The notes under the pieces: model-generated | Told to the model about the DNA's origin: nothing | Database searches by the model: none | What the model saw: the letters and a program-made list of their open reading frames with translations, nothing else | Position numbers and translations under genes: made by a program | Origin: Tetrahymena thermophila SB210 | Taxonomy: Eukaryota > Ciliophora > Oligohymenophorea > Hymenostomatida > Tetrahymenidae | Assembly: GCF_000189635.1 (NCBI RefSeq) | Contig: NW_002475926.1 | Span: 1 to 64,000 of the forward strand | Direction of reading: 5' to 3' | DNA length: 64,000 nucleotides | Part shown: positions 34,703-53,400 of the stretch, piece by piece | How the letters are laid out: every line of letters begins with the position of its first letter | Position numbering within the stretch: the stretch's first letter is position 1

Positions 34703-37700
34703 ATGAATTAGGCTGAAGAAGAAAGTAATACAAACAGTGTTTTTATAGATATAGATTCTCAGTAGCAAAGTAAAGGCTAACCAAATTCCAATCAAGCATA
34801 AGTTTTATCATCAACATGTAATAAATAAATATAAATAACTATTTACCTATATAAATTGAAGCAAAAGTTAGCAATTAAGTATTTAAAATAAGTTAGGAAG
34901 AACTTAATTTTTATATTATAATAAAGAAGCTTAAGACGTAAGCCAGATTGTTGACTCATAATAAGATAAATATTTTAATATAAATTATACCGAAGCAAAT
35001 AATTTGCAGAGCCTAGATGAAATCATGAATTTCTGCAATTCATCTAAGGCTCGCTCTTCATCTATTACAGTTGATTAGAAGGATTTGGGATCATTATCAG
35101 GAAAACATTTGAAGGATAAAGATGAAATTTTATCAAATTTTTCATTATTTCCTAAATTGAATATAGAGAAAATATAAATATCGTAGAGTTATTCATACTC
35201 AGATAGGACCATAGATGCTTCTAACAAAAATTAGGATTAGGATTAGTTAGGTGATAACTTTTTAATGGAAAATAAAGCTAGTAAGACAGAATATAAAGGA
35301 TGTGAACAATTATAGTAAGAATTTTAAAAAAATGAATTTGAAATGAATGAGGAATAAAATGCTACTTTTTAAGGGGATAGTTAAGAATTAACAAGCATTT
35401 AACATAAAAATCAAAGCATACCTCCTTTACATGAAAATAGGATGGCAAAGTTAAAAAATAGGATGAATTTAAATATTTAGCCTTAAGCAGCAAAATCTGG
35501 AGATTTGTAATAAGGGAGCAATCAAAAAGAAAAAGCTAATTTTTCTTCACCAATTAATGAAATACAAAGCGATAACTCCTCTTCTAGCAACCAAAAAGAC
35601 AAACTTAATATTGAAGAATTAATGCAAGAAAACAAAAAACATAATTTAATATTAGATATCAAGAATAAAATGCACAATCAAAATTAGGATTAAGATGAGG
35701 CTGAGGAACTTGTGTAAAATGATGAGTAAATTTTTTTAAAAGATTTTCAAGCAATTTACTATGACTAATTTAGCAATATTTTCAAAAACTATTTATGTTT
35801 TAATTTTATTAGAATAGAAAATATTGATTGATTTCAGATATAGCTGTTAAAATAAAATTAATTTTAAATGTTATCTGATAATATATTTATTATCAATAAA
35901 TCAATTAAAATATTCATCTATCTATATATCTATTATTTATACTTACTAGATCTATTCATTTTACTTTAAATATTTTTATTATAGATTTACAAAGATGTTT
36001 TAGTCTAATTGCCCAATTAAATCTCCAACTCTACCAAAGCCCAAAAAAAAATTAGATTAATCTTAGCATAAGATGAACTCCTCACTTGAAATTTCAACAG
36101 AAAGAAAATAAAATTCATCTTCTAGTACAATTAAAGAAGATCTCTCTATTAAAGGCGAAATAAATTCTTAATTGAGCAAGCAAACATTAGAATCTGATAT
36201 ATAAAACTATTGCCAAACAAACAATAATAATTAAGAAGCACCATAAATCCAAAGTTTATCCTAAGTAGATAAAATTCCCAATACTCATGACAATAATTAA
36301 GGTATATAGCTAAGTTTTATAGCAGATATAAAGTCTGTAAGGAATTCCAAGGTAAATGCTTTTAGATCAAGACTAACTTTGAGCTAACATGAAGCAGATA
36401 ATGAAGAATTCAGAAAGAAAAGTTCAACTATTTCTGTAGATCTATTGTAAATGCAAGAGCCAATTTCGATTAAAGATTTATAAAAGAACTATTCCTCTCA
36501 CACTACAGAAACTCCTTTGACAAATAAAAAAAATCTTTAAGTAAATTAAAAGAGACAATCATATTCTAAATCTTTCAAATCTGATTTTCAAATTGATGAG
36601 ACAAATGATGAGTATAAAGACGTAGAATAATCACAAATTCACTAGCAGTAAATGAATAACGAGGTAGTTACTTCTCTTGAAAAGACTGTTTCCAGAAGAT
36701 TTGAAAGGAAAGATCTTAGAATAAAAGTAAATCCTGTTAAGGACCAAGAAAAAGAAGACGTCTGGGATTCGTAAATTATTTAAATAAACCTTACTTCCAT
36801 AAATAATATTCAATATAAATTCTATAAAAGATTCTAATTATTAAATAGATATTGATTTTTAATAATTTTACTAAAGATTGATATAAATTATTTAGTAACT
36901 TTTGTAATTAATCAATTGATATTTAAAAGAAGTTATTAATGTTATTTATTCATTTATTAATAAAACAATTCTTTTAGGGATGACTTAACTTCTAATGACT
37001 AGAATGCATAAGAAGAACCTATTGTTACAAAGGCAAAATAAGGGAGTCATAAGTTTGAAGATATTTATTATCTGCTAAACGGTAAACCTTTGGGAGAAGG
37101 TACGAGTGGTTGTGTTTATCAATGCAAAAAGCTTAATTAAGAAGATGAGACTGTGTATGCAGTCAAAGTTATGAGAAATGTAGATGAAGAGATGAGCAAA
37201 AGTATTTTCTAAACATTTGGAATACAGTATCGCCTTTAACACGAATACATCTCTAGAGTGTATGAAGTTTACTTCAACGAGGATAACTAAACTGTTCACT
37301 ATGTTATGGATTTTATACCATTTAGGACACTTGATTCTGTAGTTAAAGATAAAAGAAGAAACATGAAAGAAACTGAAGCAAGCGGTATTATTTAAAAACT
37401 TTTAAAAGCTGTTATGTATATGGAACAAAGAGGTGTCTGTCACCGTGATTTAAAACCTGAAAATATACTTATCTCTGAAGATTTATAGTAACTTAAAATT
37501 ATTGATTTTGGCATTAGCAAATCTTTTGTCAAGTCATAGCGAGTACAGCATATTACTTAATACTATAAGCATAAGATGTATACACCTACTGGAACTCCTC
37601 ATTATAAAGCTCCGGAGATACTACTTGGAGCTGGATATACATAATTAGTTGATATGTGGGCAGTTGGAATTATTGCATATCAATTAATTGCTAAAGGAAA

Positions 37701-40700
37701 GCATCCTTTTAAGTGTGATTCAAATTAGGAATAAGATGCAAGAATTATGAAGTATTAGTTTGATTAAACAGACGAAGGATGGGTAAATGCTTCTTCTAAT
37801 GCAAAAAATTTTATAAAATCTTTACTACGACCAAATCGTATGCCAGCTTTTGAGGCTCTTAAGCACCCTTGGATTGAATAAAGAAAAATTGAAGTTCCTG
37901 CTGATGATGATAACCACTCCTCAAACAAGTAAGAGAAAAAGCCTATAAATGATAATATGACTATTTCTGTTCCAACACTTTTCTTATAAAAGCAATTTAA
38001 TCATTTTGGAATTACTGTGACAAACAGCGAATAACGTTAGAGGAGCGGGTTTTTGAAGAGAGCAAATTAGGGAGAAAACTATGATGATTCTATTCCTCTT
38101 AGGGCATGTAATACAATTTAATCAACTAATGAATTTGATCTTGAAGTATCAGGAAATAGCAATATATAAATTAGCAATTATGGAATTCAAAGCCAAAATT
38201 AAAATAATAATGTTAATGAATAGTAAAATTTAAGTCATGGAAAGCTATAAATACAAATTTAAGGTTTGAATAATAATTTAAATAGCTCAGAATAAGTAAC
38301 TCCTGTTTTAGGTAAAAAAAAGCACAATATACAAGGTTTTGCATCTACTTAAGATGTTGTTCATGTAGTCATGAGACAGAAGCTTAGTGAAAGCAAAGAA
38401 AAAATGATGTAATTTTTTTTAAAGGCAAATGCTATTATAAAAAGTTTGGAAGAAGAAAAGTTGCAACAATAAAATTCTCTAAAACGTACTCACTCAGCAG
38501 AAAAACAGAGCGATTCTCCTCAATCACCTGAAGAGGTTTATAGTAAACCCTTGCTAAACAATAGCATTAATCAAGGGATGCAGGCATTCAGCATTTACAA
38601 AAATAACTCTATTGGATTCAATCCATAGAAAGATGATCCTGTAGCTTTGAATAGCAGTGGCTTTGAACAGAATTAACAGTCTATTTTTATGCCATAATAA
38701 ATAATACAATAATAGAATTATACTTAAGGTTCTATTGATGAGTAAACACGAAACAAAATTAAATTAAATAATAGTTTTGCAGGATAGCAAAACCTATAAA
38801 ATATACTAAGCAAAGGAGCTCAAAGCAGCTTATAATCTCTTGGAAAGAATACTTCCATAAATGAAGGAAATAGTTCTATGCAAATTAATTAGTCAATGAA
38901 TAATGCTATGATCTACTCGACATCTGATTTCAGTAATATGAAATTCTCTAGTTTAATGTCAAGGAAGACAACTAATATTAATAAAAAGGGAATAATCGAG
39001 AAAAGGTATGTCCGTCGTAATAGTCAACAACAGACTAATTGCATGGAAAAAAGTATAATCTTTACTAAGGAAGTAATTGGTGAACTATAAAAAGACCCTG
39101 CGATATAGGAAACTATTGAGTAGTAACAAATACTTTTAAATTCTACCTTACCATTTACAATAGGCTAATCTATCTCTAATAGCGAAGGCTAAAATAATGA
39201 GCAGTAACAAATGACTGATAGCATTCAGCTAAAGAATTTTAACCCAAATTACTATGGTAATTAGAATATAAAACGCTTTAGTAGTTATGCTCGCAATTAA
39301 CAGTAAAATTTAAATAATGCACAACTCTAACAAAACTCAGCATCATAGAGTATTAACTAATAGATTAGGTTATCTATGAACACTTCAAGACCAATAGACA
39401 TATTTTCTAAGGGCATAGACAGGGTTATGAACGAAGAAGAAATTTAAAAAGAAAAGGAAAAATGGAATTTAATTCAAAATAATATGGATTAAAAAAGTGA
39501 TAGTAGTAGTGGTGATGATGATAGTGATGGTGATAGGGATGATAGCTCGGATGGAAATAATAATGATTCAAATTCCTCTTGCATGAATCATTAAAGTGGA
39601 GACAACACATTTATAACTGACATTACCAAATTTATGATTTTAAATCCAAACCAAAATAATTAATTTAATTAAAGTGAAGTTTAAAAGAATAAAAAGGATG
39701 AATCCTCCTCTTAAGTAAACTAACAAGAACAAACTTAGGCTTAGGCAACAAATCCAGAAAATTAAAACCAAAAAAATGAAAACTTAAATTTAATTGTCAA
39801 TAAAATAAATGGTGACACTTCCTCTTTAAGCAACATAGGCAGCGAAGAATAAAAAGATTAAGAAAAAAAAAGTTTATCACAATCTCCTATTAATAGTTAA
39901 AATTAATCGAAAAATAATTCATAAAATCAGTAAGGAGGAATATTTTAGAGCGCCCCTTATACTAATTATATGAACAGTAGTAAGGATGATAAAATAAATT
40001 AAACTTTACTAAGCATTTAAAACCCAAATAGCAGCAATGTACTCTAACCTGCAGCTGTCCTTACTACAAATGGTGGTATAGCCACTAAAGAGAATATATC
40101 AAGTAATAGCTCACTTTCTGGTAAAGTAGAAAATTAACCAAACAAAATAAAAAATTAGAATAATTAAGATGAGAAATAATAAAATTAATAAGTATTAAAA
40201 GATTCTATGAATAGCAGCTAATAAAACCAGAACAATTTACTTTCATGTGTTAACTGCAACTAGTCTAATTTAAATTGCAGTAACTGTGAAAATTAATTTA
40301 AGATAGACACAATTCTAGAAACACATGTACCAGACGTGACTACTTCTCAAAAAATAAATTCAAACCTTAATTAAAACGTCTTTACAAATTAATAACTAAA
40401 TTAAAAAAGATAAATTGATACTTCATAAATTATCGATGAAAAAGTATTAAAACAAAAATAAAATTAAGCAGAAACTAGCATACTTGAGTCGTCAGCTTGC
40501 AATAATTTAAGTTTTATTGAAATGAATAACTCAAATATATTTGCAAGTCCTTATAATTAATATGAAGATTTTTTAAACACTTCATTAAAAAAAAATACTA
40601 ACTTGTTGAGTATGAATGTTAGTTAGGCTTCAAGTATAAATGCAAATATTTCTCTTAGCGGAAGTGCAAATAGTGGAAATACAATTCGTTCACTTCATGC

Positions 40701-42375
40701 TATGACAAATGCAAATAATAATCAGCACGGAAATAGTAATAACACAAATAGTGATTGTGGTAGTATTCACCTTTAATAAGTAAATTAAAAAGATAAATCA
40801 AACTCTTCGAAATTTAAGTAGTCTGATTATATTAACAACTCCCAATTTAAGAAACCACACAATAAATTTGATTTAGATATGTCCGAGTCGCAATCATATA
40901 CTCCTTAAGAAAATCCATTATAGACTAGTATTTAAAGATAAATATTAGATTCAGGATTAAATACTAGTAATGAAGTAACTCCTTCTAAACTAATAAATGG
41001 TTTAAGTGAAGATATTCCTTAAAACTCCTTAAATTTGGCTTAATAAAATGTTTAATCATTCAATTCAGGGCATAGTGAACATAGTAAAGAATCTAGCTAA
41101 GGTAGCAAGAATCAACAAATTTAATAAAATTCACATTTAATGGAAGATTAAAATATAGCAGGTCCTCCACCAATTTCGCCAAATAAGAAGAATTTAAGCT
41201 AATAAATAGATGCCAAAGATGACTCTTAAAGTGATAAAAGCAGTTTTAAATACTCAAATTAATCAGGAAATAATAGTTTAGATGGCTAATAAAAGCAGCA
41301 AGATTTATAAAGAGAACAGTAAAACACACTTAATTCTAAATTAAATTAAAAATATAAGTACTTAAATTCTAATTATTCAACCATAACAGAAGAATCTGAT
41401 ATTAAAAGTTGTTTGTCCTCTTCAATAGCATAAAGTTAAAAAATTGGATTAGAATTTGAGTCTACTAACTTATCAATAGGTTAACATTTTAATAAATAAA
41501 ACTATACTAGATCGATGACTTAAATGGTATAAAGTAACTCAGAAAAAAACGAAAACAGTTAAAATAATTATAGTGGATAAAATAATATAGCAAGCTCTAC
41601 TTCAACCATATCTACTAACCAGTGTAATATTACAACAAATCTTTAACTAAAGGAGTTAAAATAAAGGCAAGACAACAATAACCAAGCTGGTTAATCGCTA
41701 GATGAATTTGATTCAAATGATGATTTAGAATAACAACATAATAATGAAACCAAAAGTTAATTATTAGATAGTAACAACTCTTAAAAAAAGCTGAATTCTT
41801 CATCGTTTAAAAACTCAGGATTTTAAAAAATGAGCTCATAATAAGGTACAAAATCAAGTCCTCATTTTAATAACACAAAGAACTTAGTTTCTAATTAACT
41901 CGATGAAGTTTTCGGATAAATGTAAAATTCCTCATCGTTTATGAAATAAGAAGAAGAATTCGATATAAATGTAGGCAAGCAAATTGACAGAAGCAAATCT
42001 CCATTTAATTCAAAATCACATCCAGCTCTATCACCAAATAACAAGTAAATATCTAGTTTACAAAATAGTAGCGAAATTGAATAATTACCTTCATTATTTA
42101 GTGAATAACCTCCAATATTAAAACATAGAAGCAGCAGTAGATTGTTAGAAATGTCTGTTGGGCTTCAATAAGTAACTCAATCAAGAGATTTATCAGATGA
42201 TCACAACGAAGTAAAAAATGAAAGCTCCTAAAAACCATAATTTTATAATTAAGATTTACACAAAATAGAGGTAATCCCTGAATTAAAATATGATGAAGGG
42301 GAAGTTGATAATTCTAACTCAGATAATGCAGATTTAAATAATGAAAAGAAAATAGATGAATAAATTAATGAATGA
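34703..42375 (+). CDS. CAMK-like Ser/Thr protein kinase with 1500-residue low-complexity tail
   Basis: 2365 codons in four exons; introns at 34818-34926 (phase 1), 35726-35984 (phase 2) and 36771-36977 (phase 2). Residues 1-600 are charged and low-complexity. The kinase domain at about 600-870 has LGEGTSGCVY, VAIK-type Lys in YAVKVM, HRDLKPEN, DFG (IIDFGISKSF), GTPHYKAPE, DMWAVG and the closing HPWI typical of CAMK-type kinases. A 50-residue insert-like stretch rich in Tyr/Gln sits between DFG and APE. The remaining roughly 1500 residues are N, S and Q runs, with an Asp/Ser cluster near 39490-39560. All catalytic motifs are present except that I cannot place the helix-C Glu. No calmodulin-binding segment or EF hand is obvious, so classification beyond CAMK-like is not possible. 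Confidence 0.85.
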
Positions 42376-43430
42376 ATATATAAAACTTGGAATTCAAAAG
42401 GATCTATCTACTAGTTATAAAAATTAGTTAGGATCCTAAAAACACTATCTTATAAACTAAAACATTTTTGATATAACTTTTTAATAAAATTATTCATGTT
42501 AAAATAGAAGAATAGAATCAAATAATAATTATTTCTAATTATCCAAAATTTTAATAATAAATAATAAAATAAATAATTTTAAGAACAGATTAAATCAGTT
42601 TTTAATTCATATTTATTGTAGTTAATAAAATATATTTTACTTGTTTTTTAATAAATTAAATATTTTAAAATGTAAGCAATTCTAATTTTGCTCTTCATAC
42701 ATATTTTCATTAGTAAAATTACACATATTATTATTAATAGTAGTAGAGAAGATATTTTTTGTTTTTGTATGCAATAAATTCAAGCAATTCTTCTACTAAC
42801 ATTAATTAATCAATTTTTTTAGTTTCAAAAGAACTGAAAAACCACAATAAACAATTAAAGTCAAAAGTTGGAATTAAGTTAAATATAATTATAATTATAG
42901 TATGTTAAAAATTATAATATTAAATTAATTTTTCATTTAAAATTTTTATAATCACACAGAAAATTTGTTTACAAAAAAGAAATTTAATTCTTCCTTGAAA
43001 ATGAGAGTAAACAAAATTATTTAATTGATTTGATCTATCTTGAATAAATTGATAAATTTTGTATTTTTAGATGTTGAGCTATTTTATTCAAGTAAGATCA
43101 TATTAAAAATTAAAAATATTTCTAAAATGATTTTTTTTTGCAAATCTGAATTTTAAAAGCTAATAAATAGATTAGCTTTGTTAGATTCTCTTTTTTTTAT
43201 AAAGTTAGTTTAATAAGAACTTCAATTAAATCATATATTTATCATGTTATCAAATGTATAAAAAATGAAAGTCTTCAAACTATTAAATTATTAATTGAAA
43301 TTGTAGATTTAGAGTAATTATTTATTATTAGATTCTCTAAATACTAACAAATTTTAAAGAAAAGTAGTTCAATCTAAAAATCAATAACTAATATTAATAT
43401 TAACAATTTTAATAAATATCAAATTTTATA
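42376..43430. other. Intergenic spacer
   Basis: 1055 bp of AT-rich DNA between two plus-strand genes. Nothing recognisable. Confidence 0.6.
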
Positions 43431-44724
43431 ATGTTTAATTCAATGACAAAAGAAATTAGATTTTTAAAGAAGCTATTAATAGTGATAATATCTTTATCAT
43501 TAACAAGAGGAGATCTTTCATGCAAAGGAATATACTAATAAGATGTTGCATTCTATGTTATCTAATCTATGCCTTACGACGTTTAAGTAAAAGAACAAAT
43601 ATATTTTGGTTACACCGATGATCAAAATTTAAGATCTACTTTTAATTACTCTCCATAAAATCTACTTTTTAATTCTTCCTCACCAATATCTCTTTTAATT
43701 TCATAAATAAATGATGATCCATCAATAAAGTTTATTTAATGGGATAATAATTAAGGAAAGAGTAGCCTTTCTTCTTTTTCTAAAGGTTTAGTTGCTATTT
43801 AAGAAGAATCAGAACATGGTAAAATTATTTATCTTATTTTTTATAAATTCTTTTATACTTCAATTTGTATTAACACTTTTTTAATAAAAAATTTACAAAA
43901 TAAATAATTAATTCTTAATAGGATTGTTTTTTGGGTATAGCATGAATAACTTTTTGAAAATTAATAAATCTAAAATTGAAATGAATCTCAATCAATAAGA
44001 TCAAATGTTTGGCTAATAATTCTTTTGTATTTCTCTAGACTTAGAAAATTTAGAAAAATTAGCAGAAAATTTGTTGATTACAAAAATTAATGTTTAATTT
44101 AGTAATATATCCTCTTAATTAAAATTTAAAAATCTCTCTAGACTTCAAAATTATTTAAATATTCACTATCCACTCGATTACAAAACAGTTGATTTGAATT
44201 TAATAAATTCAGAAGTAATTGTTAAAATGATCACTTAAAATTATTGGATTTATTATAACACCAATATATCATCTGATTTTGAATCATTGACTATAGATGA
44301 TTAAATATCTGCAATATTAAATTGTGATATTCTTTTTAAAAACTCTAAGCCATCTGTAAATTAATGCTAACCTCATTATACTTCTGAGACTATCTTAACT
44401 ATTCAACATAAAAATTATAAATTAGACTCAAAATAAGATAAATCAAAATGGATCCTTTGTAAAAATAATAATCAAAATACAACACCTTTTATCTGTTTAA
44501 GTGATTTAGATAATTACACACCACGCTACTTTCATGGTGGTAACCTATTCTGCTTTAAGAGCAAATAACTTCATTAATTATATTCTAATATGATCTCATC
44601 AATCAATTTTTGTACTTTAGACGATATACTTCATTCAAAACCTAGAGATAATAAATTCACTGAATTATAAAACGAAAATAAAGAAGAAAAAGAAAATCCT
44701 TAAAATTATTATTAAGATATCTGA
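43431..44724 (+). CDS. Secreted DNase II-like protein, probably catalytically inactive
   Basis: 396 codons, two exons, intron 43819-43921 (phase 1). The N-terminus is a signal peptide (LLIVIISLSLTRG) followed directly by LSCKG. Four blocks match the deoxyribonuclease II fold in order. Near the N-terminus is DVAFYVIQSMP (animal: PVDWFVVYKLP). Next is SFSKGLVA ... FFGYSMNNF (animal: GHTKGVLL ... LVHSVPNF). Then FGQQFFCISLDLENLEKLAE (animal: YGQTLLCVSF...). Finally DKSKW ... CLSDLDNYTPRYFHGGNLFC (animal: DHSKW ... CVGDMNR ... GGGTLC). Length is close to the animal enzyme (about 360). DNase II uses two HxK motifs; here they read FSK and KSK, so both His are replaced while Lys, Gly and Trp around them remain. 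Inference: a lysosomal or secreted, non-catalytic family member. Confidence 0.75.
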
Positions 44725-45558
44725 TAATAACAATTGCTAATTGCAGATTTTTTATTTGTATTAGAGAGTTAAACAGATAAAGGTTAGACCTATAACTATT
44801 TATATTTCTAATTGAAATTAATATAATAATAAATAAACTTAAATAATAGTATTTTATATATTTTTATGTAATTTGTATTTAGTTTATAATAATTTAAATA
44901 AATTTTAAAATGTTTATTTACTTTTTATAAAAATTTTATTCTAAAAAAATATTTATTGCTCTTGATTTTATAGATTTCATTAATTAAATGTATTGTCCAC
45001 ATATATATTTAAATTAAAAAATCCCAACCATCGCTTAGTTTGGATAAACTAAAAATATATTATTTTGTTTGAAAGTTTGGAATTAAGAGATAGTTTTAGC
45101 TTTGCAAAATTAGGCTATTAATTTTTAATTTGCATGCTCTTTATGCTTATGCAGTACCTTAGTACTATCAATTTTTATGCAATTTCATTATTATAAAAAA
45201 TAATTTAATTGACGAATAAATATTGGTTATCAGTATTATAGTTCTTATTTCGTTGAAAGAAAACAAGCACTTATTGAAAATAATATATCAAATAATATAA
45301 AATCTTTTGTGAGTTGTTTACATTCATTTATTTTATAATTTGTAATCCTAACTTCTAAAAAAAATATAATGTTGATTTGTAAAGACAATAATTGTAATAA
45401 AATCAGTTAAAAATTCAAAAGATCTTTAAAAATATTAATTAAGAATAATTAGGGCTATAGCAAACACTCCTATTATTAAATTATTGCAAATATTTATTTT
45501 TATAGCTAAAGAAAGTCAAACAAAATTTAGGACATTTTACTAGGTAGGGACTAAATAA
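44725..45558. other. Intergenic spacer
   Basis: 834 bp, AT-rich. A 6-bp perfect hairpin (45036-45051) is the only structure noticed. No gene seen. Confidence 0.55.
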
Positions 45559-46680
45559 ATGTAGAATAGTATAACTGCTAATCGGGCTAGAATCAGTATT
45601 TACAACTTTCAAAATGAGGTTAATGCTCTTTTACAATAGCAAGAAATGCTAGAAGAAGAAAACAATTAGCTAAAGCAACGATTAAAAACTAAAAATGAAG
45701 AATTACTATTAAAAATTACAAACAGTTTGCCTAAAAGCTTTACTGATAACTTCTTAACGGGCTTAAAAAAATAATCTCTACATTTAGATATGGTTGGAGA
45801 TATAGCCATGAGTAGTATTTTAAATGATTAATTTGAAACTACATGCTCAAAGCAAGCATAATCGGATATTTTATACTTGAGATCTATCATTCAGATTTAA
45901 AAAGAAAAATTAAAAACAGCAGAAGCTAAAATAATAGAATTAAATGATTTTGTTCGTTAGCAAGATAGTTTGCTTACATAAACGAAAGAACTACTAAAAT
46001 CAAAATGTGCTAAAATTTAATTACTTGAAGAATAGCTATAGGAAGAATAAAACCATTTGGTTTGTCTTCCTCTTTAATAACAAGAAATTAAATAACAGTA
46101 GTATTAATTTAAGAAGTTTATGGAGACTGAAGAAGAAGAATTTGATTTTGCTCTACAAATCGAAGAATCAAGAAGAAGTTTATTAGAAAGAGGGTTTCAA
46201 GGCGATTTGTGCACTCTGTCTCCAAGCGATATTAATGAAACAAAAAAGGAAAATAGCAACTACATGTATCGCTTATAAAATTAAAACAATATTTTGTATA
46301 ATAAAGACTCTGTAAATTTGTCAAGCAGACTAAGTGCAGAGAGAATTCCAAGTTAAAGAATCCTTTAAAATAATAAAAAAATTCTAAATTAGATAAGTTA
46401 ATAATAATCAGCTTGTAATTCTAGCAGATTTAAAAGCGATGTGAATAATGATATAAGAAAATCTTATGATAGGAATACAGGTCCCACTAATATTAACGTC
46501 TATTAAGTTTCGCCATTTAATTATAACCAGGTTACAAAAACTGAAACAACTCCTCATAAAAGGCAAAATTCAATATCAAATGGGCGAAGGAGATCTAGAG
46601 CAGAGAGGTTATAAAAGAGCACAAGTTCGATGATAATTTATACTTCAAATGAGTATAACACATTTAACCCATTAAACTGA
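45559..46680 (+). CDS. Coiled-coil protein of unknown function
   Basis: A single exon of 373 codons (TAA/TAG = Gln). Residues of about 15-65 and 115-215 are heptad-like and rich in Q, E, K and L (LLQQQEMLEEENNQLKQRL; KSKCAKIQLLEEQLQEEQ), so coiled coil is likely. These are followed by an acidic patch (METEEEEFDFALQIEESRR) and a basic, Ser/Asn-rich C-terminus (RRRSRAERLQKSTSS-type). No signal peptide or membrane segment is visible. I do not recognise a family. An additional 5' non-coding exon is possible because an acceptor-like TATAG stands at about 45500. Confidence 0.72.
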
Positions 46681-47456
46681 TCATTTCCACTAATTATAAG
46701 CTCAATATTATTGTTAATTAATTAATTAAAACTGTAAATAAATAAATAAATATTTTTGCCTATAAACAATATCTTAGAAAATAGATATATTTTCTTTATC
46801 TTAATTTGTAAAATTATTTATAATTAATAACTAAAAATCAACAAAACAAACTCATCTTTAAAATTCATGTTCTTTACTAATATATGTATTTTATTGCCTA
46901 ATATATTTTTAGATATTTTAACTTTGTTGAATTTTTTAATATATTATGATTGGCCAGTATGTTATTTTTATTTACATTGTTATTTGAATTAAAATTATTA
47001 AACTTTTTAAACAAACAAACTCTCAAAATTGAATAGAGTAGATTAAAAATTATAAAAAAAAAAATAATCATTTTGAATTTATAAAATAAGAGAATGAATT
47101 TTTAAATTTAATTTTTCAGTTCCATAATTTTGATTTGAAATTATTTACCATTTATTTAATTATTTATTGGGTTAATAAGACATGCTTTTCAATATAAATA
47201 AAAACGATATGTGCTTAAAAGATAATTGAAAATGCTACCTTATTATTACTTGCATAAAACAAAGGATTTTAGGAGCTAGGAATATATTGTAAAGCTTTTT
47301 ATATGCAAGAAAAAGAAAAATAAGATTATACTTACTTATTCACAATACTTTAATAAATAAAAATAGATAACTCTTTCTTGATTTTAATTAGGGATATTTG
47401 TTGAAGTTTTTACATTTAAATATAAAGGAAGCTAACCCAAATATCAAATAGTTCAA
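46681..47456. other. Intergenic spacer
   Basis: 776 bp of AT-rich DNA. No feature recognised. Confidence 0.6.
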
Positions 47457-50400
47457 ATGAAAAAGTATAGCCAGGGCAATAAGGAAGTAGCTCGTCCTAC
47501 TGAGGACCAATCAAATTTAGATGGATAGAATTTAAAATAAAAAGAGGGTACATTAAAAGAAAATCGAAATAGTGCCAAAAAGCAGAAAGATTCAATAAAA
47601 GTGAATAATAACACAAGCTAGAGCGAAGGCTAGTATAAAACAAGTTAGGACGAGGATTAATTATAAAATGAGAATATGAATATAGTAACTAAAAACTCTA
47701 TTTAAAATTATAGCCAATCTTAGAATAATTAGAATTTAACAACTTTAAAATACATTTCTAATTCAGATCCCATTGATATTACTCCAAATGAAATTCATTT
47801 CAAGGATATATAAATTAACTAAACATATGAGATTACCTTGTACGTTAGAAACTTAACAAAGAAACCTCGTCGTATTAGAGTATTTTAGCCATAAACCCCA
47901 CATTTTAGAGCTGATTATGAAATGCAAGGAGCTATCGGAGCTGGTTTGGCAATGAAAGTAACTGTCACATTTGAAACTACTTATTTAGATAACTTCAAAG
48001 ATGTAATGAAAATTGTGAGTTAAGATAATTTTTCTAAAGAAGTCTTTTTATATGCTTATCAGCCATGTGCTTAGCTGGTTTTTGAACCATTTATTAATTT
48101 TGGTAAGATTTTGTTTATATCATGTTAACAAACAATTAAATAATATCAACCAATTTTACTCAGCTATTAAAAGATATAGTTAAACAGATAGATTTGAGAT
48201 AAATATTATTATTAACTTATTGATAAAGTTACTTTTTTTAAATATCATTTGTTTTACGTTTCCTCATATAAATAAAGTAGATTTATTTTTATTTTGTTGA
48301 ATTATTACAAAACAGGTTTTGTTAAAGTTTAGCAGCAAAAGTAAGAGAAGATATTTTTCAAAAATGAAGGTTCGGTAGCAGCTAAAGTTGAATTAAAATC
48401 AAGTGATCCTGCCGATTTAAAAATAGAACCCCCATTCTTTTCAATACAACCAAAATAGGAATTTGCAGTTACTGCAACTTATGAAAGTTAAGAAGCTGGT
48501 TTATTTAGGGGTTTTGTCTATGTAACAACAGAAGCTTAATGTCTTCAGAAAGTAATAGATATTAATGCAACTATAGTCGAGTTTACTTAGTTCTTAATAG
48601 ATGATAGCGGTAACCAAACAACTTAATTTGACTTTGGTACTTTTTATTATGGTCAGGAAAAAAAAATACATGGTTTTTTGGTAAATAATACTCCTAAAAA
48701 GTATAAATACAAAGTTAATTTTAGATTTGGACTTCTATATTCTGCTGAAGATATTGCAAGTTTATAAACACCTAACGAAGTAGGAAGGGAATAAACAGAA
48801 AAAATTATGAGTATAGAACCTTCTGAAGGAGTAATAGATAGTTATTCCTAAGTAAAAAATTATTTAGTTGTAATAATACTTTTAAAAATTATCTTCTTAA
48901 TTATTTATAAAAGCTTCCTATTGTATTTAAGTGTCATTCTTAAGTACATCCAAAGCATTAATTTTGGACTTAATCTTATGCTATTTCAAAAGATGAAATG
49001 AATGCTGATGTAGAAGATTATTCTTATTCAGCAATATTTTCATATGATGGCTAATAGTCTAACCCAACTATAATACACGTTACTGGAAGAGGTATTTGCC
49101 CTACCATTAAGTTATCTAAAAATCTTATTTAGTATGGAGAATGTAATGTCAATGATTATAAAGATTGTAAATTAGAAATCGAAAATAGAAACAGAGATAT
49201 CCCAATTTCTATATCTTGCTCTAAAATACCCTACTTTACACTATCTCCAGCAACAGCTGTAATAAACCCTTAATCAAAAGCTGTTTTTGTTGCATCATTT
49301 CAGCCAAAAGGTAGTTTAACTTTTTTGTTTTAGAATGAATATTTATCTCTATTAAAAATATAGCTGTTGGAAGTTTCTAAAAAAATATGCAGATATTACT
49401 TTTTAATGGAGCTTATAAATTAGATCTTAAAATGCTAGGTAAAGCTTTGGATATATCAGAAAAAACAATAACAAAAAGAGGACCAGAAACTTTGCCTGAA
49501 AACTTTGAAAATGAAAGAAAATTCTTAGATGAGGAAAATTTATTTTAAACAAGAACAAAGAAATAAGTAAAAATTTTAATAAAATCAATTTTTTTTACAT
49601 TATTTTTAATTCAGTATGAGGATAGAATTAATGAAATCCCTGACTGGGTAGTAAATAATAAAGACCCTACTGTTATGGACTCTTACATGAATAGCAAAAA
49701 ATACGATGATGTCTTAAGAGAGCACCGCAAAGAACGTCTTCAGAAAGAAAAGGACAAAATCGTTGCAGCAAAATATGAAGAAATGATTGAAAAACTAAAG
49801 TAATTAGGCTTAGCTCCTGATCAAGATGGATAAAATTAAGGTGCAGAATCAGACGAAGAAGGAAAGGGTGGTAAATTTGCAGATGCTCCAATTGATTATG
49901 CTTACGAAGTTGGAATGATATAAAATAGGCTAGATACACCTGAGTTACCTCTTCCTATTTCAAATGAGCCTTTGTATGTTAATAAGCCTATTGGTAAATA
50001 TGAACCATATGCATAAAATGTAAGAGATTTAAGTTGAAAAAATAATTAATAATTAATATCCATTCATTTTTTAATAGTAAGAAAATATGAAGTCATTCAA
50101 TCCTGATCCAAATGTAATAATAAAGAAAAAATGGCACTCTAAACCTTAAAATCATAAAGAAATAAGAGAAATATCTATGAAACTGTAAGGAGAATAGCTC
50201 TAAAAAATATTCGCAGGCCCTGTATTTATTGATTTTGGACCTGTTTATGTTAAATCTACTATTTAAAAAACTTTTACTATTCGAAATGATCTCAGAACAG
50301 CCATTTCTTGCAGACTAATTGTACATTATATTTTAATTTTTATAAAATTAATATTAAAAATTTAAATTTAGGTTGATAGCGATGAGCTGTAGGGATCATA

Positions 50401-53400
50401 CTAAACTCTATAAATTATTCCTCCAAGCTAAGTTGCAGGATTTGATGTGGTTTTAAAAAATAATACTCTAGGGTAATTTAGAAATAATGTAAAATATATA
50501 ATTAATGAATAGCATGCATTTGAATTTTAAGTAATTGCAGATATTCAATTGGTTAAACTTGAGTTATCTAGAGTTTAGATAAAAATGAGTTTCTTTGAAG
50601 ATAATCATGAAATGATTACAAAAGAAACCTTAAAACTCACTAATAATGGTAATTCAACGGGTAAATTTGAATGGGTACACACTTTAAACAAAATATTTAC
50701 TATTACTCCTGAAAAGGGTGAAGTACCTGCTAATTCATCTTTAAACCTAACGGTTACTTACAAGCCCTCTTAGTAAGCTGGTTCTAATTCAATCTCTTCT
50801 TAAAATAATTTGTCAGCAAATGCTCCAAATTCTGCCAGAGATTCTAATCAAGGTTCTAACTAAAATGACAAATAAAGCATGGCCCCAATAACAAGAAACG
50901 AAGAAGAGAAACTTGTATTAAAAGTTTAAGATGGTGTAGAAGGGGCAATTAGATGTATAGGAACAATCTAAGAAGCTAGATGCATGATTAAAAATGTAAG
51001 CATATTTTTTCATCCTCCTAAAAAATAATTAATTTTATTTAAAATTAATATGAATAGACTAATTTAGATTTCAAAGAAATTGCTGTTTCAAAAGCAGAAA
51101 CAAAAACATTCTAAATCAAAAATCTAAGTAGGATCTAGGCTATATTTAGTATCGATTAAACTAATTTACCTGAATGTGTATCGATTAATCCTTTAAAAGG
51201 AAGAATCGGTCCTGATGATGTTAGGGATATTTCAGTAACCATCTTAAGTAACCAAGAAAATACTTTTAAGGGTGATATTATTGTTTACATAAGAGGTGGA
51301 AGAATCCTAAAATTGCCTTTTTAAGGATAAACAATAATTCCTTAAGTCAGCATATTAGAAGAGCTATTTGATTTTGGAAATATTACTACTTTAGGTAAGT
51401 TTTATTTATAAATAGAAAATTTATATAACAATTATTATTTTGTATAGGAAACTAGGGTATACTTAAAATGTCCCTGTAAAATAACTCTAATATTCCTGCA
51501 GATTTAGTTCTAGATATGAGAACAGATGAAGATTACGAAAAGGCTTAACCAGGTATAGAGTGTTTGTCTATTGAGATAGAAGGTGAAGATGATGATTCAG
51601 TTCTACACTCAGTACATGAAGAATAAAGTGAAGAGGAAGATTAGCAAAATAAAATGAATAATGATGATAATGAACCAGATTTTGATGGCCCTTTAAATGA
51701 GAGTGTTGATAGTTTAGAAGAAGAGAGTGAAAAGAAAAAATCAAAGCTATTTAACTTAACTGTTTATCCTAAACAGACATTGAATTTTGTATTAAAGTTT
51801 TGTCCGAAAGAAATTATGTAAATTTTTTTTTTCTACTTTTTAATTATTTAAAATATTCTATTAGCTCTTATAAGCTATTGCTTCCATTGACGCTTTCAGG
51901 TTATGGGATCATCCCTTCATTAGAAAGGTACATCACATGTAAAGGTCTTCATCCAAAATTCTTAATTGATCCATAAACATGTGAGTTTAAAAGAAAAGTT
52001 ATAACTACGCCAGATAAATGTTTTCCTGATAAGATGGAAGTAACTTTAAATAACCCTGATAGAAGAAGCATCAAATGGAGAATTGATATAAGTGGTATAA
52101 CATCTGATAAAATATTTTAAGTAGAACCTTCTTCTGGTATAGTTGAATCATGCGATTCGGTGAAAATTGAAGCACTTTTTAATCCATATGCCCCAGGCAA
52201 TTTTACTTAAACTCTACCTTTATACATTGAAGAAGATGATGAAATTCCTTCTAACGTACCTTATGTTGAGCTAATATTAAAAGGTAGTCTATTAATTCTT
52301 TTAAATTTCTTACTTTAACTCTTTTATTAGTGACTTTTAATAATTTTTATTTTTTCCAAAATTAGGTGAGGCTGCTTTCCCAAGACTTCAATTTGACAGG
52401 AAGGAAATTATTTTACCAGTTGTGCCTCTCGGGATATAGTCTCGCTGCACTTTTAGGATTATAAACGATGGCTATGAAAATTTGAATTTAAAATATAAAA
52501 TTATTTAAGATATTTCAAATATTAATGTAACTTTGAACTGGCCTGATGGAAAAAATTTGGGTATAACAAAACATAGAATAAGAGTTGAGGCCGTATTTTC
52601 AAATAAAAGACCTTTATCATTTACAACTAGAATAGAATTTTATGATGACTCCGATCGTGTGTATCCTATTTATATATCTGGTACAACTGATAACTGCCTA
52701 TTTACTAATCAATCATATCTGTAGAGATGCAAAGGGGAGTATTCAATATATTTAAATGAAGTAAAAGATGATAGTAATAAATTTTCTATCGGAAACATTA
52801 TGATTAAAGAGGAAGATGAGGACATTAACTCAGTAGATGGTAAGACATAAACTTCTAGGACTCATTCTATTGCTGCAACTAAGAAGAAAGGAGGAGCTGC
52901 CTCTACTCTGAGCTATGGCTCTACTAAAAGTTCTAGAAGCATGCTAGGATATTAACCAATACCAACTCCTTTCTTAGATTAGTCTATTGAATATATAACT
53001 CGCTGGCTGAATTATCATGTTCTTTAATAGCCTATAAACAGTTTTCCACAAAGCGTTATAGAGCAAAATGGCAGTCCTGTATTTGATTTAATTACATTTT
53101 TAACTGGAAGAACTTAATTCCCATTCAGAGCCTAAATTGACCACCTTACAAAAAGAACTGAAAAGGTAAAAGATGATTGATTGATTGATTATTATATTAT
53201 TTGATTATTATTTTTTCTTAAATAACTAAGTCCAAAAAACTGATGTCCTAATACGATGAGTTAATAAGATCATTAAAGGTAGAAGGAGGTATGCTTAACC
53301 ATATCAGGCCAGAGTATTTGCTAAGTTATTAAGACTATATTCTATATGTGAAATAGCTACCTAGCTAGGTCACTAATACAATTAGTCAGAATGTTTTAAG

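Follow-up and report, generated by a model that had tools for sequence, protein, structure and literature searches.

A divergent DNase II relative in Tetrahymena thermophila that has very likely lost the family's means of cutting DNA

The window analysed here, a 64,000-nucleotide stretch of Tetrahymena thermophila SB210 (contig NW_002475926.1, positions 1 to 64,000), encodes at 43431-44724, on the forward strand, a member of the DNase II family in which both catalytic histidines have been replaced. In all likelihood, the gene specifies a translated, catalytically dead relative of DNase II. As a pseudoenzyme, this DNase II paralogue would be unable to cut DNA in the way the family does, and it is probably secreted or located in endolysosomes. 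It would be made, folded, and carried in the secretory pathway, with a non-catalytic job.

The gene and its product

Read in the ciliate code (TAA and TAG specify Gln; TGA is the stop), the gene comprises two forward-strand exons and yields a product of 396 residues. Exon 1 (43431-43818) includes the start codon, a likely signal peptide, the N-terminal part of the DNase II domain, and the first of two motifs discussed below. Exon 2 (43922-44724) encodes the remaining domain and the tail, and ends with the TGA stop (44722-44724). Between them the gene model predicts a 103-base GT-AG intron (43819-43921), on which the first-pass annotation is silent. The coding sequence has a GC content of 0.235, higher than that of the intron (0.107) or the flanks (0.148 and 0.179). 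An intron shortly 3' of the first motif is modelled in all five DNase II genes of this genome, with that of the window gene lying a few codons later than, and in a different phase from, those of its paralogues.

The N-terminus has a basic start, the hydrophobic segment LLIVIISLSL, and a plausible cleavage site before DLSC, as judged by eye. The likely signal peptide accordingly spans 27 residues (43431-43511), again judged by eye from the sequence and the alignment. The predicted mature start, DLSC, matches DPSC or DPQC in three of the paralogues.

Family membership and relatives

The first-pass annotation assigned the protein to the DNase II family, and the assignment is borne out by the Pfam DNase_II profile (PF03265): E 2.4e-51 and 175.3 bits against a cut-off of 23 bits, with the match covering the whole profile (1-326 of 326). 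The same profile gives 326 and 330 bits for two canonical paralogues (L001 and L002, respectively). Searched across the genome (101 Mb in 445 contigs; match counts are lower bounds), it yields at least nine matches over the cut-off, representing at least five genes. The four other genes, one on contig C60 and three on contig C114, all encode HAK and DHSK at the two catalytic motifs. These paralogues are 42-60% identical among themselves, and the window protein is 20-22% identical to them. A genome search with a protein query returned only the window gene (two matches) and one weak match to a paralogue. That the Tetrahymena genome encodes NUC1, a DNase II relative, is stated in an excerpt of PMC3077326.

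The canonical paralogues have features of their own. L002, L003, and L004 lie in the same orientation within 14 kb (G000:C114, ~461.7-475.2 kb). L001 (G000:C60, minus strand, up to ~1338700) carries a long cysteine-rich C-terminal extension, for a total of 774 residues; its first 749 residues give a weak, sub-cut-off match to Giardia VSP. It combines DNase II with a surface-protein-like tail.

The four paralogues and 46 bacterial homologues make up the 50 other members aligned with the window protein; two of these rows lack coverage at motif 2 and at the Asn and Arg positions considered below. The bacterial rows came from two sources. An earlier bacterial genome scan with one alignment (A1) confirmed no homologue; a scan with another (A2) found 40 loci. 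Two were dropped (L047, a fragment, and L052, with no profile match), which left 38 rows. All 38 had been retrieved with a pair of peptide patterns, the first including the second catalytic histidine and the other the Asn of GDIN, so among them the counts for those two residues lean towards conservation. The second source was a PF03265 search of 1,340 bacterial genomes in four groups, each built around a genome in which PF03265 was already known; the profile matched 13 genomes, the four centre genomes among them. Eight of the rows obtained in this way were used, after removal of duplicates (L053-L056) and of a broken gene (L061/L064/L065). In these rows, which are free of the pattern bias, the first catalytic histidine is present in 8/8 and the second in 6/6 with coverage. 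All 46 bacterial homologues retain both catalytic histidines wherever they are covered. Scans of viral contigs confirmed no viral DNase II relatives.

Two observations concern the bacterial sequences themselves. Five of them (L059, L060, L062, L063, and L066) form a divergent group in which the LxHSxP histidine is replaced by Val (QVSTP or QVTTP); HxK is kept, and motif 2 reads NHAK in the four rows covered there. The removed gene (L061/L064/L065; G432:C1, ~790.0-791.0 kb) is a DNase II homologue in pieces with internal stops, and looks broken.

The active site

The two variant motifs lie where the first-pass annotation had placed them: FSK (residues 116-118; 43776-43784), within SSFSKGLVA in exon 1, and KSK (residues 303-305; 44440-44448), within QDKSKWIL in exon 2. 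Each stands in place of an HxK motif. The codons for F116 (TTT at 43776) and K303 (AAA at 44440) are each two bases away from the His codons CAT and CAC, so a single base error explains neither. A profile built from the 50 other members, with the window protein excluded, aligns F116 and K303 with the two catalytic histidines. The same correspondence appears in a five-sequence alignment with the paralogues and in a 51-row alignment that includes all members. The replacement of both histidines noted in the first-pass annotation is thereby confirmed.

Four positions that are invariant among the other members have changed in the window protein: the first catalytic histidine (H in 50/50), now F116; the second (H in 48/48 with coverage), now K303; the Asn of GDIN (N in 48/48), now D326 (44509-44511); and the RGGG arginine (R in 48/48), now H334 (44533-44535). 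The His of LxHSxP is not universal, being H in 40 of the 50 others, Q in five, and V in five; the window protein has Y135 (43936-43938). Both HxK lysines, K118 and K305, are retained. At the position of the W in DKSKW, the four paralogues have Y, and 31 of the 48 other members with coverage have W.

Each PLD half of DNase II has a catalytic triad of H, K, and H/N, according to an excerpt of PMC9208542. The third place in the two triads is here given, by our own assignment, to the LxHSxP histidine and the GDIN asparagine. On that assignment, the triads of the window protein would read F-K-Y and K-K-D, with four of six residues altered. In the mechanism proposed for DNase II, His297 is the attacking residue and His115 the proton donor (PMC11430429, in excerpt). 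The window protein has an HxK in neither PLD half and lacks the presumed third triad residues, all of them features of an active enzyme. From these replacements, cleavage by the DNase II family mechanism has very likely been lost. That loss had been suggested by the first-pass annotation and is well supported, given that both histidines, both presumed third triad residues, and the Arg of RGGG are changed.

An intact HxK elsewhere in the domain was considered and rejected. The product's only HxK is an HSK at residue 367, in the tail; it follows the final cysteine of the domain and falls outside the stretch matched by Pfam (residues 30-360); about 0.55 HxK per shuffled protein is expected by chance. 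Nor do the three forward frames of 43400-44760 contain any HxK with G, W, or Y as the next residue.

Divergence and constraint

The first-pass annotation pictured two exchanged residues in a protein conserved elsewhere, and that picture is wrong. Its claim of conserved flanks holds for the immediate surroundings of the motifs, where SKG and D.SKW are kept, and fails for most of the other conserved columns. Family-conserved columns were defined as those in which at least 90% of 44 members agree, with six divergent or short rows excluded; of the 58 such columns, the window protein keeps 20 and has changed 38. The four paralogues keep 45 each and the 44 members 45-58, a range measured on the same members that defined the columns. 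The catalytic columns (both histidines, both lysines, and the Asn) are kept in 2/5 cases and the other columns in 18/53; these similar loss rates indicate that the catalytic residues were not preferentially lost, contrary to the picture of two switched residues. Five of the conserved columns are Lys or Arg. Only two are kept, both of them the HxK lysines; outside the motifs, K39 has become S, K224 T, and R312 H (L002 numbering).

In a tree of 49 rows (L058 and L062 omitted), the window protein groups with the paralogues at moderate support (93/72). Its end branch is saturated, at about eight changes per column, and the tree program warns that the placement is unsure. Such very high general divergence fits weak constraint as well as it fits a new function.

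The reading frame is open throughout: in-frame TGA occurs 0 times in 396 codons, against 10, 12, 15, 11, and 4 times in the other five frames. The probability of this absence is 0.009 with position-specific composition and 0.002 with flat composition, and none of 2000 first-order simulations reproduced it; these values favour the gene somewhat, because the frame was selected as open. A neutral copy of such age should have lost its frame, which makes selection for the protein likely, though not proved, and the gene does not obviously look like a wreck.

The cysteines give a further view of constraint. The six cysteines assigned here to three conserved pairs are present in the window protein (residues 31, 165, 278, 321, 340, and 360). 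All but Cys278, which is offset by a few columns, line up directly with cysteines of the paralogues; paralogue Cys49 and Cys54 are absent. Which of these residues pair with one another is presumed from human DNase II. Three conserved cysteine pairs are stated for vertebrate DNase2/2b in an excerpt of PMC9208542. With Cys278 counted, the pair cysteines are kept 6/6, compared with 28/98 for the other paralogue-invariant positions (P 0.0009); as aligned, with Cys278 not counted, they are kept 5/6 (P 0.012). Taking all eight paralogue-invariant cysteines, the figures are 6/8 (P 0.013) or, as aligned, 5/8 (P 0.06). This enrichment test was picked after the alignment had been seen. A separate candidate feature, an excess of N-glycosylation sites (eight, versus 0-3 in the paralogues), was set aside, being no more than composition predicts (P 0.25).

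Structure prediction was applied to exon 2 alone (266 residues), with 30 of the 38 bacterial rows in the alignment. Confidence in the model is low (mean pLDDT 62.4). The top-ranking PDB match is a bacterial DNase II, 5i3e (Foldseek E 1.2e-3, probability 1.00, TM 0.43, rmsd 7.9); no PDB match in the Foldseek search reached E 0.001, and the second best stood at 0.18. As a control, the same region of a canonical bacterial homologue (L014) gave a mean pLDDT of 73.7, with strands and helices in an order that resembles that of the exon 2 model without being the same. Family members were present in the folding alignment, so the match to 5i3e is not independent, and the predicted resemblance of exon 2 to the DNase II fold is supportive only.

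What the protein may do

The first-pass annotation proposed selection on fold or on nucleic-acid binding. The former is plausible, judging from the open frame despite ~21% identity, the likely signal peptide, and the six pair cysteines; retained nucleic-acid binding, with only two of the five conserved Lys/Arg columns kept, is unsupported. The best guess is a binding protein, secreted or endolysosomal, that has ceased to act on DNA; DNA sequestration and regulation of paralogues are both less supported alternatives. The disulphide-stabilised two-domain PLD fold would then offer a surface on which a protein or a glycan, rather than DNA, is bound. A model for such a surface is FAM83, in which a dead PLD-like domain holds a kinase. 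A binding role for the window protein has roughly an even chance of being right.

The alternatives turn on much the same observations. The first-pass annotation had suggested sequestration of DNA in phagosomes or modulation of active paralogues. A DNA-binding pseudonuclease, which would sequester DNA or shield it from the active paralogues, could draw on K118 and K305, both kept, and on K303, which brings the basic residues at the former active site to three; the conserved basic columns outside the motifs are gone, however, and the loss of most conserved basic residues argues against simple sequestration of DNA. Net charge is not decisive: it is about -4 at pH 7, where the paralogues span -8.8 to +6.1, and about +6 at pH 5, where they span +1.1 to +14.8. 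This reading is on balance unlikely. Dead enzyme relatives often regulate active ones, and four active-type paralogues are encoded in the same genome, with which the window protein might form mixed complexes as a regulatory partner; at 20-22% identity it is a distant partner for them, and such a role seems rather improbable. It is improbable, too, that the gene is a weakly constrained, dispensable duplicate, its frame still open, heading for loss. That would account for the 20/58 conserved columns kept, the equal loss of catalytic and other columns, the very long branch, and a coding GC below that of the paralogues (0.235 versus 0.29-0.34), but in a neutral copy at ~21% identity an in-frame TGA or a frameshift would be expected, and neither is found. 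The pair cysteines, moreover, outlast other paralogue-invariant positions, by the post hoc test described above.

Continued activity as an enzyme, with another chemistry or substrate and perhaps the participation of Lys303, is scarcely credible. We know of no chemistry for this combination of residues. The lysines of both motifs are kept, but the histidines that serve as nucleophile and acid in the proposed mechanism (PMC11430429, in excerpt) are lost, and with them the invariant Asn and Arg. The preferred reading remains that of a non-catalytic binding protein built on the DNase II fold.

Neighbourhood and significance

Positions 1-28 of the window are CCCCAA telomere repeats, which places the gene about 43 kb from an apparent macronuclear chromosome end. 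The upstream neighbour (36916-42372) is a protein kinase with an 1819-residue open frame and long Gln/Asn-rich stretches (Pkinase, E 1.5e-54). Downstream, the open frame at 47457-48194 matches a CFAP74-type Ig-like domain (31.3 bits against a cut-off of 29.2), with a HYDIN-type match below cut-off; its product is perhaps a cilium protein. A tRNA scan of 36000-52000 found no tRNA genes.

With the window gene, the short list of DNase II relatives without catalysis gains a ciliate example. The genus is apparently a tractable laboratory one, and the genome's canonical copies, at least four in number, provide built-in controls; if the protein is functional, its non-catalytic role would be accessible to ordinary gene knockout, outside a parasite. 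The gene also carries a caution for annotation: Pfam names it DNase II at very high confidence despite the lost active site. Among the matching titles and abstract openings listed, none describes this gene or an inactive ciliate DNase II.

Comparison with known systems

With canonical DNase II (PF03265; human DNase II alpha, C. elegans NUC-1, and Burkholderia thailandensis 5i3e), the window protein shares homology over the whole domain and the order of the motifs. Also common to both are a likely secretion signal, the cysteines of the three pairs, and both HxK lysines. Unlike the canonical enzymes, the window protein is without both catalytic histidines, the Asn of GDIN, and the Arg of RGGG, and it is only ~20% identical to the canonical paralogues in its own genome.

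Earlier reports on Trichinella have already described inactive relatives of DNase II. An excerpt of PMC10249883 describes ~125 DNase II-like members in Trichinella spiralis, with the active-site His replaced by Lys or Ser, and states that two assays showed no DNase activity for one of them, TsDNase II-7. According to part of PMC4148230, only one of 125 predicted DNase II genes in Trichinella has a predicted active site, and a cloned form has two motifs. PMC6230719 speaks of TsDNase II enzymatic activity, and the Trichinella precedent for inactivity is thus not without dissent. The TsDNase II-7 family, which is secreted, and the window protein, which probably is, are both DNase II relatives in which the active-site His is replaced. 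The replacement of His by Lys in both is presumed to be convergent, the two being set side by side by description. It is a doubtful, far-reaching idea that the His-to-Lys change in DHSKW is a repeated route, taken in Trichinella and in the ciliate, to a secreted protein whose pocket, lined with lysines, binds phosphate or polyanions in a shared non-nuclease job. The settings also differ: ~125 predicted genes in a parasitic nematode, and one gene beside four canonical ones in the ciliate.

A more distant parallel comes from FAM83, whose PLD-like domain has lost the HKD histidine in all members but one and has a binding role, anchoring CK1 (PMC6008594, in excerpt). FAM83 is a separate family, found only in vertebrates, and the likeness is one of mechanism rather than descent. 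Within DNase II itself, the window protein is a divergent pseudoenzyme of an already known type.
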